From a virus, in IMG/VR virus record IMGVR_UViG_3300030382_002581, positions 1 to 24,695 of that record: a stretch of DNA of 24,695 nucleotides, one strand, 5' to 3'. Position numbers and translations under genes: made by a program. Below, piece by piece: positions 4,368 through 18,860 of this stretch. The notes under the pieces are model-generated. The model was not told where the DNA came from, ran no database searches, and worked only from the letters and a program-made list of their open reading frames with translations. How positions within the stretch are numbered: the stretch's first letter is position 1; each line of letters opens with the position of its first letter.

Positions 4368-7072
4368 TGGCAAATCTCTTAGCTTACCCGATGCAAGACA
4401 ATTTTGAAACAACGTTAGCCCAATCACGAGATGGGGCAGTTGGCACGATTTATTTGAATGATTCTCCTACATTTACATTCCCAGCAACAGCAGATACTTA
4501 CTTTGTTGTGAATCCTGGGAAGAGTAATATGCAAGTTGCTAAGATAGACTCTTATGCTTCAGTAGCAAAGACTGCTAACGTGAGTAGCATAACAGTCAAT
4601 AAGGGGGCTAGTGTGGCTTACACACAGCAAACTCATGCAGTAGGAAGTACAGTTATCATCTCAGACAACTATGCTTTCTGGGAAGACATGGACACAGCGA
4701 TAATTAGCAAAGTAGGAAAGGACGAGACGAATCTAGTAACCTGAACAGTAAATTTTACAGGTACTAATTTCTGATTTGCTCCTGTAGAACTTACAACAGC
4801 AGAGAGAGATGCTCTTTCAGGAACTCCACTTTGAGCATTGATCCGAAACACAGACGATGCTATCCTACAATACAACACATCAGGAGGTTGGGTAGATGTA
4901 ACAAGCACAACGCCACCACTAACTTCAATAAATGGTTTCAACATAGGAAATCTATCACAGTATGATGACAACTGGACAATAGTGAATGATTGTGAGTCTG
5001 CTACTAACTGGTCAGCACAAGATGATGCTACTAACTTCGCATTAGTTACATCAGGACAGCTACTGGGTAGTGGATGTTTAGAGTGGGATAAAGCAGGAAC
5101 AAACGTCCTATCTGGTGTTCGTTATGACCCATCAACAGTAGACTATTCAGACTATAGATACCAACTATTCCACATATTCATCCCAACGATTACAGGAACA
5201 GGACTTACAGATGTGACTGTAGTGATTACAGATACAGACGGCGACACCTGAACATGGAATATAACAACTCAGTTTGAAGGAACAGCTTTATCTGAGAATG
5301 CCTGGAACTTCGTATCTTTTGATATGGACACTCCAGACAGTCAGAGTGGAACACTAGACATTAGTATTATAGATCACTTAGAGTATTCTATAAAGGCAGC
5401 ATCAGGAGATACATTCTCCAACGCCTTGATAGATTATATTAGTGTAGTCAAAGACAATTCAGGGACAAATGTTACTGATAATTTCTACTACAACTGAACA
5501 ACGTTTGATATGACTTGTGATACAGACTCTTGGGCAATCATAGATGAGAGTAATGACGAAAGAAAGATATTCCATTCTTCTCCCTTGTCTAGTGCAGGAA
5601 TATTCACAATGTCTTCTTCTTTGCCAACTAATGCAGAGTTTTTCTTCAAGGTGTATATGAATACAAGTAGTTCATTAAAGCCAATAACATTTAGATTAGA
5701 TGATGATAATAGAGTGTCCTTGGGTACACATCTCACAAGCGTAAGGGTAACCTATGAAGTAGCAACGGTAGAAACCACTACAATATTATTCGCATCATTA
5801 TCAGCAAACGAGACGGTATATTGGAAAGTAAAAAAGATAGGCAATAGATATGAAATATCAGCAAGTAAAGATTGAGCGAATTGGGAATCAGTTACTATAA
5901 GTGCTTCTTTTACTACTACATCTCTTATTGCTAGTTCATTTACAGGGTCTCCACCTATGAGAGGAGAGATAGTAAGTTATTCTTATGGACTGCTAACAGC
6001 AGGACACGCAGGAACTTCTGACTTTGCTTACAATGCACAGAAGGTAGCACTAGAAGATAATGCTGGAGCATTTACTACAGGAGATCTTCTTCCTGGACAA
6101 TTTGGAGAAGACACATCTAATGATGATTTATATGTAGGAAAGAACGACTGAACGGTAGAAAATCTTTCTTTGACTGTACCTGGAATAACTTCTAAATTCT
6201 GAGGAGATGGTTCTGATTGAGTACAAGGAGACGCTAACTTAACTATAGCAGGATCAAATAATACATACATAGTGAAAGACTTTACATCTTGGACAGCTGG
6301 TACTGTAGCAAGAACTTGTACAGTAACACCAACAGGATGTATAGTACATATAAAAGTAAGTTGAGATGCCGACTTCACAAATTGGACATTTGACTTTCAA
6401 GGTAAATGATCTCTATGAGGAGCGGCACCAGCAACTGTTTCACAGACAATAGGCATCAATTGAACTGATGGGATAACAAATATGCCATTTTTCAAAGCAA
6501 ACAAATGAACTCGTTGAGCAACCTATAGTAGTGGTTGAACTTGATGAGCTGCTCCAGAAATAGTTGATATTACATATTATCAATCATTGAGGGCATTATT
6601 TTCATTATCTTGAGCTTGAGGTGCTTCTTGAGGAAGTTGAGATTGAGGATTAGTATGACAATGATGAGGTGGTTGAGCATGATGAGGAGTTCTAATTATA
6701 GAAGTTGCCTGAAGTATAATTTGGTCATCTTCTGCAATAACAGTAGAATGAGCTGATGGTTCAAATTGAGACACTAATTGAATACCGAATAGTTCTGATG
6801 GAGGTTGAGGTTGATGAGGTTGAGGTTGAGTTTGTATAGTGCTATATAATTGAACGGAAACTGGCTCAGTAACTCCAGTAGTTTTATGATGAAATAAATG
6901 ACTTTGAGGAACTTGAGGAGCTCAATGATATACTGACTGATGATGAGGAGGATGAGGTGGTTGAGCTGCTGCAGCTGGAGTTAATTGATGAGGTGGTTGA
7001 GCAAATTGATGAGATGGATGAGATGGATGAGCTGGATGGTTTATGATAGAAAAGAACGAAGTATTTACTTAA
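4367..7072 (+). CDS. Tail fibre with polyglycine tip
   Basis: 901 residues. The N-terminal domain (to about residue 160) includes ELTTAERDALSGTPLG...RNTDDAILQYN, a common fibre element. Next come jelly-roll or carbohydrate-binding-like modules: CESATNWSAQDDATNF...GSGCLEWDK, DYRYQLFHIFIPTITG, and a second similar module (DTDSWAIIDESNDERKIFHS). A further segment AGSNNTYIVKDFTSWTAG follows. The C-terminal 200 residues are dominated by glycine runs (GGGGGAGGG, DGGGGGGGGG) between short strands such as ALFSLSG, GVLIIEVAGSIIW and GWFMIEKNEVFT. About 44 UGA codons lie in this last section. Glycine-rich tips are known from phage adhesins (for example T-even gp38), where polyglycine loops display receptor-binding surfaces; applying that here is inference. 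Start and stop overlap the upstream gene by one base. Confidence 0.8.
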
Positions 7073-8871: not shown

Positions 8872-11439
8872 ATGGCAGTATTCAATGATAAGAAAGCACC
8901 AAAAACTGTTACAACTGTCTCTAAACAGCCAGTATTTAATAAAAGAAAAGAATCTCCTGGTATGTTTGGTAGACTAGGAGAGAAACTCATTGAAAGAGCT
9001 GATAGGGTAGTAACAGAAGACTTGCCTAAAGTCAGACCATTTTGAATTTGAGGTATAACTCCTAGACAAGCTGTTATAAGAGCTGTATGAGAGGGAGCAT
9101 GATTTATTTGACAAGATATACCAGGAGAAGTTATCTCAACAGTTTTTGGTGCTGTAGAGAAAAAAGCTCCAGAAGCTTTGAAAGAAGGATTCAAGAGTAC
9201 TTTGGCAAAAGCATGAGAGACTGCATTCTGAAAAACAATTTCTAAAGCATTGAAACCAGCTTTGCTAGCTGTACAGAAAGGAGCAGCAGCCTACTGAAAA
9301 CTCAAACAGAACCAACCAGAGTTAGCAAGAGACTTAGAGTCTATAGTAAACATAGGGTTATTTGCTGCTGAACTTCCTGGAATCAAACAATTTGGTAGAT
9401 GAGCAAAACAACTTATTGGGAAGTGAGCAACAAAAGTAGCAAGTAAAACAGACGACTTAGTTTCAGAAGCTAAGAAGTATAAGACGGCTGATGAGTTTGT
9501 GAAAGGAAATCATATTGTTGGCAAACACACATACACACCAAACTTTACTAAAAGACATATGAGTCCTAAAGAATATGAAAGATATATAAAAGAGACATCA
9601 AACCATTGGTTGATAAATTTAGACCCTGAAGCAGTTGATTTCTACCAACATATTTTAGCAGCGTGAGAGGGGAAACCTCAGCTAACACAAAAAGTTATTG
9701 ATTCGTTTAGTATAACAGTACCAACCAAACCAGTTAGACTTTATAGATGAATAAATAAGCACCAATATAAATGAGGTGGGAATATGTTTGAGTCATGGAC
9801 ATACGATAAAAAGAAAGCTGAAAAGTATGGTGGATGAGGTGTTATTTCTGAGACAATAAATCCATCTGACATAGTGATTGACACCACATATGCGAGTAAA
9901 GACCCCACATGGAGTGAAAAACTTAGACGGATATGAAAGGAAACATGAATACAATGATGATATACTGATAAAGAGGTAATTGTTTTCTCCGAGAAATTTA
10001 GAGAAACAAACACCCAACTCCGTAAGATACGGGAACAAGCAAACAAGTGATTACCAAAGAAGACTACAAATTTAATAGAAGAAGCCAAGAAGTATAAGAC
10101 AGCTGATGAGTTTGTGGAGAGTAGGGGTAAACCAATATATCATTGATGAAAATGAGATATACAAGAATTTATGATACCAAAAGAATGAAAAGAAAAAGCA
10201 GTATTTTTTACGTCTAAAAAGAATGTGGCTTGAAGTTATATAGATACAGCCAAAAGTCCTTGAAAGTTAAAAGTAGAATTTTTGGAAGATTTGTATTTTG
10301 ATAAAAAGATTACCAAAGAGGAGTTCATAAAAAAAAGAGAAGCAATTAAATGACAAATGTGAGATGAAAAATGAAGAATTACAGAAGCATTTTTAAATAA
10401 TAATGCAAAAACAAAAAAAATAACAGGTGTAGAAAGATATAATGCAAGCACACAAGAAAAGATAATAGATGAAGCGAGGAGAGAGTGATATGATGTAGTA
10501 GTAATAAAAAATACAATAGATGATGCATTTGAATATTGAGAATGAATACCATCTGATATAACAATTGTTTTCAATTCTGAGAAAATCAAAACAGAATCCC
10601 AACTCCGTAAGATACGAGAACAAGCTAACCCACAACCATTGTCTAAGAAATGAGAGAAGGTTATTGATATAGTTATGGCACCAGAGAATGCCAAAACAAA
10701 GAGAACAGCTTTTGGTGAGGGAAGATTAGGTATTGAAGATGAATGAGTTAAGACTGAATTATTTGGAAAGAGAAAATGAAAAATAGCTCCTAGTCAAAAA
10801 GAAATTGATGTGGCAAATACTATTCCAGAAGTAATCAAGAAACCGAGTAAAAACCCTGAAAAGTTAATGGGGCAAATAAAAGATGAAATAGGTGTTAGAT
10901 CAACAAAATTAGAGTGAAGGATGAAAGATGTTCCTGTGGGTGAGTTCCAGAATGACCTAAATAAAACAATATTGGAACTGGAAGGTTCTCTAATAAAAGA
11001 CCCCAATGTTGCTGCTACCTTAAGTATAAATGAAAAAACTGCAATCAAACAACTAATCATTGATCTCAGAGCAGCAGAGAATGCTGATGAAGTATGGAAA
11101 GCAAGGCAGACTTTTGACAATGCGGTTAAACAAAAGATAAAGGAAGGTATAAATTTGACAGACATACAGGAGACAAGAAGAGACAATTGGCTCAAACACA
11201 GGCGTGAATTGAATGAGGTTATGGATAAAGCGGTAGATTTAGCAGGAGACGCAAGTGTATCTAGTGAGTTTAGAATATTAAGTCATCTGTATGAAGCAAG
11301 AAACAATATGATAATGAGAGCTCCTGAGTTTGCTAAAGCTAAATCAGGCATATTTAGTTTGAAGAACCTTACAACAGCATGATTAACTGCTGGTGGTTCA
11401 ATAGCATGAGCGGCTGTTTTAGATCAATTATTAGACTAA
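8872..11439 (+). CDS. Ejection-type polyprotein with two ART-like domains
   Basis: 855 residues with dozens of UGA glycines. The N-terminal 200 residues are helical and basic. Domain 1 (about 270-395) looks like an ADP-ribosyltransferase: KPVRLYRG with R292, FESWT with S308/T310 (the S-x-T motif), and DKEVIVF with E368, the classic R-S-E order. Domain 2 (about 420-580) starts KPIYHGGKGD (H424), then AVFFTSKKNVAGSY and ends DITIVFNSEKIK, which resembles the ART domains of phage polyvalent proteins. Each domain is bracketed by EAKKYKTADEFV (199-210, 404-415) and QLRKIREQAN. The C-terminal 270 residues are helical and end in a hydrophobic glycine/alanine stretch (LTTAGLTAGGSIAGAAVLDQL), a possible membrane segment. 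Inference: it is packaged or ejected and modifies host targets. The stop overlaps the next start (TAATG). Catalytic activity is untested. Confidence 0.65.
9466..10116 (+). repeat. Direct repeat upstream of each ART-like domain
   Basis: Copies at 9466-9501 and 10081-10116 (36 bases each) differ at only two positions and both encode EAKKYKTADEFV in the same frame. They sit 615 bases apart. The two intervening protein domains are unlike each other, so the flanks are far more conserved than what they enclose. Confidence 0.85.
10015..10629 (+). repeat. Direct repeat downstream of each ART-like domain
   Basis: Copies at 10015-10044 and 10600-10629 (30 bases each) differ at two positions and both encode QLRKIREQAN, 585 bases apart. 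Together with the upstream repeats they delimit two cassettes of similar length inside one reading frame. Confidence 0.85.
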
Positions 11440-11537: not shown

Positions 11538-13010
11538 ATGGACACTCTACAACAAGAAGTCCTCAAAGAGAAAGCCAGAAGAGAACTAGAGAAGAGGTAT
11601 CAACCAGAGAGAGAAAGCCTATACGAATTTCTACTCTCATACCGAAGCCTGGAAAAGAAACAGGAAATAGACGAAAACTGGCACATAAAGGAAATATGCT
11701 CTTGCCTTGAGGACGTATACTACTGAAAAACAAAAAGACTTATCATAAATATACCACCGAGGTCATTAAAAACTGAAATTGTATCCAAGGCATTCCCAGT
11801 ATGGTGCTTAGGTCAAGACACTAGGAAGAAGTTTATGCAAATCTCCTATTCAGCAGAGCTTTCACAGAAAAACTCTGGATGAGCAAGGGATATGTATACT
11901 TCACAGACATACAGACGTATGTTTCCAAGAGTATCTGATCTAAAAGAAGACCAAAGCACCAAACAACACTGGGAAAACCAAGATTGAGGTCAATATTATG
12001 CAGCAGGGTCGACTGGTACTATTACTGGTATCGGTGCTGACATTATCATCATTGATGATCCTATTAAGCCTGATGAGGCAGATAGTGAATTGGTAAGGAC
12101 AAAAGTCAACAATAACTACCATGACACTATAAAATCAAGGCTAAACGACAAAAGCCTAGGTGCTATCGTGATTATAATGCAGAGATTACATGACAACGAT
12201 CTATGTGGACATTTACTCGAGTTGACAGAGCAATGACTCTGAGAGGACTGGAAAGTATTGAAAGTAAGCGCCATAGCAGAAGAAAAAGATATGTTTAGAG
12301 CAAAGGGAGAGTCCTTCTTTCCCAAGAGGTTTCCTTTGGATATATTAGACCAGATCAAGAGGAGCAATGCAGCTACCTTCAGTTGTCAGTATCAACAAGA
12401 CCCTATCAACAAGGCAACACAGGAGTTCCATGAGGAATGGTTCAGATACTTTGATGAGATACCTACAGGAGGAAGGATATTCACTACTTGTGACCCAGCC
12501 TTTACCAAGAAAGCCTACTCAGATTCTAGTTGTGTGATGACAGGTAAGTTTATAGGGGAAAAGATGTATATATTAGAGTACACAGTAGGGAAGTTTGATC
12601 CAGGTGAGTTGATTGAGAAGATGATCTACCACATAAAGAAGCGAGAACCCGAGAAGATAGGAATAGAAAGCTACGCTGCACAGGTTACATTGAACTTCTC
12701 ACTGAGAGCAGAACTAGAAAGGAGGAATATCTGGGCAAATGTAGAAGAACTTACTCAGAAACACGACAAACACGCTAAAATAAGGAGATTGATACCATTA
12801 TACAGGAATTGACTGATATACCACAGAGCTGAAATGTACGAACTAGAAACTCAACTGAAGAAGTTCCCTAGATGACAGCATGATGACATAATAGACGCAG
12901 AACAGATGCTTTACGATCTCTACAAACTACAACCAAACTCAGAAGCAGCCAAAAGAGTGAAAATAGAGTACGATAACCTAGGAAGACCACAGATTGTTTG
13001 ATATGTTTAA
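11538..13010 (+). CDS. terL: Terminase large subunit
   Basis: 490 residues, ATG 11538 to TAA 13008-13010. The ATPase domain has an adenine/Walker A region IINIPPRSLKTE (about 69-80; K78, T79), a Walker B strand DIIIIDDP (168-175) and a SAELSQKNSGGARDM segment typical of terminases. The C-terminal nuclease domain has FTTCDPAF (D319) and PRGQHDDIIDAEQML near residue 445, the acidic residues that bind metal for cleaving the concatemer. Three UGA glycines lie in the C-terminal part. It packages DNA into the prohead through the portal, which is encoded immediately downstream with a 14-base gap. Unusually the small subunit is not adjacent but lies at 699-1121. Confidence 0.95.
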
Positions 13011-17495: not shown

Positions 17496-18860
17496 ATGTG
17501 AGACAGAATGGTTCAGGAATTTCACTCAGACAGTGGAGCTGCAATAGGAGGTACTATTGCTTGAGGAACAGATGATTGTATTCTGTTTATAAATCCAGCC
17601 TCAACGTTAGATGAAGATACTAACTTCAAGCGAGACACAGATAATGCTAAATTATCTATTTTGTGACAAGCAGAAGCAACTGCTTCTATAACTGCAACAG
17701 GATCAGCAGGTATAGTAGACGCACATGATTTAGATATTGCACTAGCTGTATCAGGAACAATATCCTCTTCTGACTATAACGGTATAAGAGGCACAACAAC
17801 AATAACATGAACTGGCACACTCAACGCAGATGTAACAGGACAGAATGGTACTGGGGCTATCAATGGTAACTTTGTTAATGCCTGAACAGGTACAATAGCA
17901 AGAGGTATAGGTTTAATGGGTTCATCACAGGTAGTAGCAGCAGGAACAACAACAGAAGCTATTGGTTGTGCTACTGCAGTAATTATGGCACATCCAGGTG
18001 GTACTATAACAGATGCTATAGGTTTCCAATCCGCTATAATCAATGCAGCAGGTACAATAACTAACGCCTATGGTATCAAACTACCTAATATAACAGCAGG
18101 GGGTACTCTTAACTATGCTATAGAAACAGGTACTTGATTAGTAGGTTTTGGTGATGATGTAACTTGTACAGCAGACCTTACAGTAGATCAAGATGCAACA
18201 TTTAATGGCGATGCTACTATGGCATCAGGAGCTGATTTAATCTTATGATGAAATGTATTGGGGAATAAGGGTGATGATCTTACCTCAGCAGGAGATATGG
18301 ACTTTACAGGAACAGGAGGTAACTTTAGGAATATATCAGGAACTACTACTATAAATGGTATGACAGATAGTATCCAATCTGGTACAATAGTTGCACTTAG
18401 AGCCAATGGCTCTTGAGGGACAACAATAAATCACAATGCCTCACCTTGAGCATGATATGATAATTTTCTTTTAGATGGTGCAGTAGATAAGACACTAGAG
18501 ATAGGAGACAGCTTAATAGTAGTGAAAGACGCAACATCTTGGACACAGATAGCTCCTATAAAAAGGAGTGACTCCATATATACAACACCTTGAACCACAG
18601 GAAATATAGCAGTAGGAACTAAGAAAGTATGGGCAGACGCAACAAGTGGGAACATAGTATTGACATTACCGCCTGTAGCAGAATGGATAGCAGAGGAGAT
18701 TACTGTAATGAAGATAGACGCTTGAAGCAATACAGTAACAGTAGATGGCAATGGTTCAGAAACAATAAATTGAGCAGCGAATTTTGTATTAGCGTCAACG
18801 TATTCTTACTGCACAGTAAGCAATGATAGTGGAGAGTGTTTTATCTTGGGATATAGATAG
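17496..18860 (+). CDS. Tail fibre/spike with beta-solenoid repeats
   Basis: 454 residues, ATG 17496 (its second codon is TGA, Gly) to TAG 18858-18860. The middle region (about residues 130-215) contains repeats of the type GTITDAIGF..., GTITNAYGIKLP..., GTLNYAIET with a period near 20 residues, a pattern common in trimeric phage spikes and fibres. The part DGAVDKTLEIGDSLIVVKDATSWTQIAP resembles a segment of the other fibre (TYIVKDFTSW). The C-terminus (VWADATSGNIVLTLPP...ITVMKIDAGSNTVTVDGNGSETINGAANFVL) is a recognised fibre end module, probably for receptor contact. Many UGA glycines. It lies just before the lysis genes. Receptor and enzymatic activity are unknown. Confidence 0.75.

Follow-up and report, generated by a model that had tools for sequence, protein, structure and literature searches.

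An 855-residue protein encoded just upstream of a phage terminase gene carries two different domains in tandem, each enclosed by the same pair of short flanking sequences. These flanks recur around many domains in unrelated phages and around different domains in close relatives, so the bracket that they form reads as a plug-in slot for trading effector domains between phages, a general interpretation that is well supported by comparison of the sequences. Mechanistically, it is probable, in our judgment, that domains of a virion-type polyvalent protein are exchanged as in-frame cassettes by homologous recombination through the common flanks.

The window, by which we mean the whole stretch of 24,695 nucleotides analysed here, is part of a 31.6-kb virus record. 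Its reading frames are short under the standard code and become long if TGA is assigned to an amino acid. When terminases of this phage group were compared with those of three relatives that do not use TGA, the TGA codons stood opposite Gly in 457 of 647 cases and never opposite Trp, and TGA is thus read as glycine in this group; TGA as Trp was rejected on the same comparison, and both the standard code and TAG as glutamine were rejected for the broken frames they produce. By this codon evidence the phage uses code 25, which is known from Gracilibacteria and Absconditabacteria as well as some of their phages (PMC10746230), and the virus is a phage of glycine-recoded, Gracilibacteria-type bacteria. 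The ORF for the 855-residue polyvalent-type protein (8872–11439, plus strand) contains 37 in-frame TGA codons and is followed on the same strand by the gene for the terminase large subunit (11538–13010), which served to find relatives; portal-type and major capsid genes come next, in that order. In the same phage, a short ORF (L002:12947-13582) matches positions 105–217 of the 324-position profile for C5-cytosine DNA methylases and is perhaps truncated or split.

Two bracketed cores in one conserved protein

The bracket is visible in the window as two pairs of direct repeats, both in frame within one ORF given TGA as glycine. The N-flank pair (9465–9501 and 10080–10116) extends over 37 nt at 95% identity and the C-flank pair (10004–10044 and 10589–10629) over 41 nt at 88%; they stand out because the remaining direct repeats in the same 6-kb stretch span only 21–31 nt at 73–83%. 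On the plus strand, a conserved N-terminal part (8872–9456) leads to the first N-flank (EAKKYKTADEFV, 9466–9501; 39 bits with the N-flank profile), core 1 (9502–10003), and the first C-flank (10004–10044, ending in TQLRKIREQAN), where a match to the phage L102 begins. The second N-flank (EAKKYKTADEFV, 10081–10116; 44 bits), core 2 (10117–10588), the second C-flank (KTESQLRKIREQAN, 10589–10629; 27 bits with the C-flank profile), and a conserved C-terminal part (10672–11436) complete the protein. No similarity could be detected between the two cores, and an earlier note on this DNA, which had described two slots bracketed by near-identical repeats and filled with divergent cores, was accurate in both respects.

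Core 2 belongs to the Pfam family ART-PolyVal (PF18760; E 6e-11, 43.7 bits against a curated cut-off of 31.2), with the H of its YHG motif at 10141–10143. Its AlphaFold model (pLDDT 83.7) is ART-like and matches models of viral ART-PolyVal domains at E 4e-9; among solved structures RES and PARP rank highest but weakly, at E 0.015 and 0.05, respectively. By Pfam and predicted structure, then, slot 2 is an ART, with no assay data for ADP-ribosyltransferase activity itself. Core 1 shows R (9745–9747, in LYRG), S (9793–9795, in SWT), and E (9973–9975, in DKEV) in the order of R-S-E ARTs, an arrangement seen by eye in the translation and also in one alignment, with no significance attached to it. 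It matched no family, profile, or PDB entry, the R-S-E families included; hhalign against R-S-E units returned only 2.9% probability; the unit 1 structure model, built from only 9 sequences, reached a low-confidence pLDDT of 53 and was set aside; and neither viral contigs nor named phages yielded a relative of core 1 or of the whole 855-residue protein. An orphan without a confirmed family, core 1 is of R-S-E type by its motifs alone, and any ART activity is inferred. The suggestion that both domains are ART-like, for which structure prediction had been proposed as a check, holds for slot 2 and is without family or structural support for slot 1.

In L102, another TGA-recoded phage, the slot that precedes the junction shared with the window is filled by an R-S-E-type ART (PF03496; 24.6 bits against a 23.4-bit cut-off), and both L102 and L090 likewise pair an R-S-E-type match with HYD-like cores. 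A single TGA-recoded protein of L090 (L090:3562-5952) matches both the ART profile PF01129 and, with a score below the cut-off, ART-PolyVal.

Outside the bracket, the protein has recognizable kin. In piecewise profile searches, with the parts searched separately, the N-terminal part matched five bracket-free relatives (L032, L013, L029, L020, L019) and the C-terminal part three others (L008, L006, L003), all encoded just 5' of, or near, a terminase gene. As both ends of the protein match proteins of bracket-free relatives, the two-cassette block is best read, from these alignments, as an insertion into a conserved protein. None of the 15 pre-terminase proteins of relatives carries the flanks, and the outcome that would have refuted the exchange of cassettes, namely both domains always fixed in related phages, did not occur.

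The bracket in other phages

A degenerate search with the N-flank recovered 69 stretches of viral contigs and only 6 across all genome contigs, one of the 6 in a Gracilibacteria MAG (L118); a separate C-flank search recovered 23 stretches. Pooled, the searches yielded 68 non-redundant bracketed units, mostly from uncultivated phages and under two genetic codes, with the consensus EAKKYK[ST]A[ED]EFV for the N-flank and KTxxQLxxI[WR]xxAN for the C-flank. That the two flanks belong together was evident from a C-flank profile trained only on loci of the second search: it matched 30–400 residues downstream of 36 of 54 N-flank copies, never upstream of N-flanks, and in 0 of 384 other long ORFs. At Pfam E < 0.01, the cores of 67 units comprise ART-PolyVal (23), DUF3990 (9), GNAT (3), ParB (1), and SprT-like (1) domains; some of these assignments lie below curated cut-offs, many cores have none, and several proteins bear two or more units in tandem. 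Because the search patterns shape them, the frequencies of units and cores are not estimates of prevalence. The N-flank pattern occurred in only 1 of 287 Gracilibacteria-phylum genomes, and hence no host reservoir was found. Two MAG contigs, from Desulfococcaceae (L116:2611-3159) and Gracilibacteria (L118:771-1367), carry stand-alone genes that consist of a single bracketed unit. Upstream of the bracket, the L027 protein (L027:1-1923) has a HELEH metallopeptidase-like motif and a weak eCIS_core match.

Close relatives differ in the cores that they carry between the same flanks. The DNA of the related phages L027, L031, and L074 is about 80–86% identical starting at the C-flank, across the terminase gene and further on, and 86–96% identical over their N-flank stretches (the L074 contig starts within the N-flank region), yet shows no similarity between the flanks. 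One core is a helical stretch of 60 residues, another an ART of about 145, and the third an unassigned domain of 87; the junctions lie within the flanks. Between L055 and L076, identity is 98.8% as far as the final N-flank codon and resumes at 99% within the C-flank, and the cores in between are unrelated; as these contigs overlap only at the unit, they may come from two strains or be repeats within one genome. The comparison of homologues that had been proposed supported the swap-in cassettes envisaged in the earlier note: other domains do occupy the bracketed slots of related phages.

The same pattern extends to phages with unrelated or distant genomes, which have flank DNA in common and not core DNA. 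The window and L102 match over 117 nt at 89% across the C-flank/linker/N-flank junction, with unrelated cores on either side; their terminases gave no match and their portal-type proteins only a weak one. Elsewhere, the window and the longer L102 record (L124) have in common patches of 443 nt at 90% (17542–17984) and 235 nt at 79% (6194–6425), in probable tail protein genes, so that these phages exchange other modules too; they may share a host.

Flank DNA and the competing explanations

The flanks are conserved as DNA beyond what their residues demand. In the window, codons for the same residue are identical at 11 of 13 positions between the N-flank copies, against 5.8 expected from codon usage (binomial p 0.004), and at 9 of 11 between the C-flank copies, against 4.9 expected (p 0.014); because synonymous identity exceeds these expectations, the DNA identity of the copies cannot be attributed to shared amino acids alone. 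Between contigs, codon identity is 0.60 for the N-flank and 0.57 for the C-flank, against 0.46 and 0.42 expected from codon usage, and between units of one protein it rises to 0.70 and 0.73, respectively. An ART-motif control also exceeded expectation, though by less (0.47 against 0.39), and for that reason part of the flank excess may be of other origin. Across the whole unit set, Ser is encoded by AGT in 37 of 40 N-flanks and by TCC in 29 of 35 C-flanks, while Lys is mostly AAG in one flank and AAA in the other, a pattern that points to common descent of the flank DNA. The two-fold sites hardly vary, contrary to local codon usage, and two Ala wobble sites are free, which leaves selection on the flank DNA or RNA itself possible but not demonstrated. 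At the second Ala codon of the N-flank GCT, GCG, and GCA (25, 20, and 19) account for all 64 cases, GCC not being among the three commonest codons; at the first, GCC is common (17 of 66). A candidate internal ribosome site in the N-flank (GAGGAG TTT GTG) was set aside, as Ile codons and the Val codons GTT and GTA occur there and Met is rare.

That the flanks are kept by selection on the protein, as a structural clasp, docking segment, encapsidation signal, or processing site bordering each injected domain, with cores changing through illegitimate recombination and selection for intact domains, remains a real possibility, if one to which we give less than an even chance. The flanks are always in frame, are conserved as protein under two genetic codes, and, in the model of unit 2, take an ordered form with high confidence (pLDDT about 94–97); on the other side, flank DNA is held in common beyond codon usage and breakpoints fall within the flanks. 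Since they are invariably in frame and ordered in that model, a protein role is likely as well, and it probably coexists with a role in recombination. The near-identical flanks of the two tandem units in the window, and the tandem units of several other proteins, could instead suggest that one unit was duplicated in this phage and that the core then diverged rapidly under selection with the flanks unchanged. We consider this very improbable, and it is already largely refuted: no similarity is detectable between the two cores while synonymous sites in the flanks are nearly unchanged, and the cores of other phages between the same flanks are unrelated folds.

A dedicated site-specific system, with flanks that serve as recognition sites of an unknown recombinase or nuclease and are selected as DNA, would account for their sharp DNA consensus (GAAGCNAAGAAGTATAAGAGTGCNGAGGAGTTTGTG; AAAACCAAATCCCAACTMACMGACATCTGG), for the contrast between near-fixed two-fold sites and free Ala wobble sites, and for the stand-alone flank-core-flank genes of L116 and L118. 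It is nonetheless unlikely, given that an arrangement of the two flanks as inverted repeats was rejected (14 of 35 positions), that no dedicated recombinase was seen adjoining the units, although no systematic search was made, and that flanks of different phages commonly differ at 5–7 of 36 positions. A broader and still speculative proposal, which we regard as doubtful though worth stating, is that the flanks form a DNA-encoded socket selected as a recombination target, either for Red-type annealing or for an unknown recombinase, through which unrelated phages draw in-frame effector cassettes from a common pool, as an intragenic counterpart of gene cassettes.

Proposed exchange mechanism and relation to known systems

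According to the homologous-recombination mechanism that we favor, each cassette would consist of an N-flank, an effector core, and a C-flank, the flanks being short boundary sequences common to many phages at both the protein and DNA levels. Recombination via the flanks would replace, add, or duplicate a core with the reading frame intact, and in the window phage such events would have placed an R-S-E-like and an ART-PolyVal cassette in tandem within the conserved protein whose gene directly precedes that of the terminase. The probable agents, which are inferred, are Red-type phage enzymes, that is, a YqaJ exonuclease acting with ERF or RecT. YqaJ is encoded by the L031, L076, and L027 phages, together with ERF in the first two and RecT in the third; neither ERF nor YqaJ was found in the window record, which may be incomplete. 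In the related phages L027 and L031, RecT in one (L125:14157-15520) and ERF in the other (L126:13183-14342) each adjoin the same type of YqaJ exonuclease, which is another module exchange. Gene position and polyvalent precedent lead to the inference that the 855-residue protein most likely enters the virion and is injected along with the DNA, in which case the ART core or cores would act on host molecules at an early stage of infection, modifying targets that are again a matter of inference.

How injected phage effector proteins are assembled and renewed is poorly understood, and a two-sided bracket makes this question directly testable. It reveals exchange at a sub-gene scale, connects phages whose bacterial hosts are recoded with those of standard-code hosts through a single pool of boundary sequences, and offers a sequence handle for new effector domains, which may be anything between the flanks. 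No paper containing the flank motif letters was found, nor was a two-sided, intragenic, DNA-conserved bracket in multiple phages found in the literature, most subscription papers lying outside the search.

Known precedents include polyvalent proteins, polymorphic toxins, and boundary sequences between genes. Polyvalent proteins of phages and conjugative elements are described as multidomain and predicted to be virion-associated; they hold one or several ART-PolyVal domains (of the H-Y-D2 clade) alongside GNAT, ParB, and peptidase domains, and the authors note mosaicism and suggest recombining cassettes for one case (Iyer et al. 2017, PMC5512222). Precedent for injection with DNA comes from the same work and from a further report (PMC5512222, PMC9503650). 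The window protein resembles these in carrying two bracketed cores within 855 residues, only one of them from a confirmed enzyme family, and its support for packaging and injection is limited to a gene position beside the terminase, portal, and capsid genes. A conserved flank bracket, present here, does not appear in the relevant passages of PMC5512222. Core 1 resembles the R-S-E ARTs of the T4 Alt and ADPrib_exo_Tox type in the order of its R, S, and E motifs, and the sister slot of L102 holds PF03496, but core 1 itself matches no R-S-E family.

In polymorphic toxins, including the MuF phage toxins, a constant delivery part is combined with effector domains that are swapped by cassette recombination (PMC3482391, PMC5576092), and the bracketed phage proteins similarly join a conserved part to exchanged effector domains. 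Toxins of this kind replace one C-terminal tip together with an immunity gene, whereas the bracketed slots lie inside the protein or at its end, have a boundary on each side, and can recur within one protein; no immunity gene was recognized, without a systematic search, and the gene next to that of the window protein is the terminase. In the model of mosaic phage genomes cited in PMC3233612, short conserved sequences at module edges target homologous recombination, and in the bracket, too, module edges share DNA within which breakpoints fall. In that model those sequences lie between genes, whereas the flanks described here are intragenic, translated, and placed around single domains in unrelated genomes. 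What is new relative to the known shuffling of polyvalent and polymorphic effectors is a bracket that is two-sided, internal, and repeatable.
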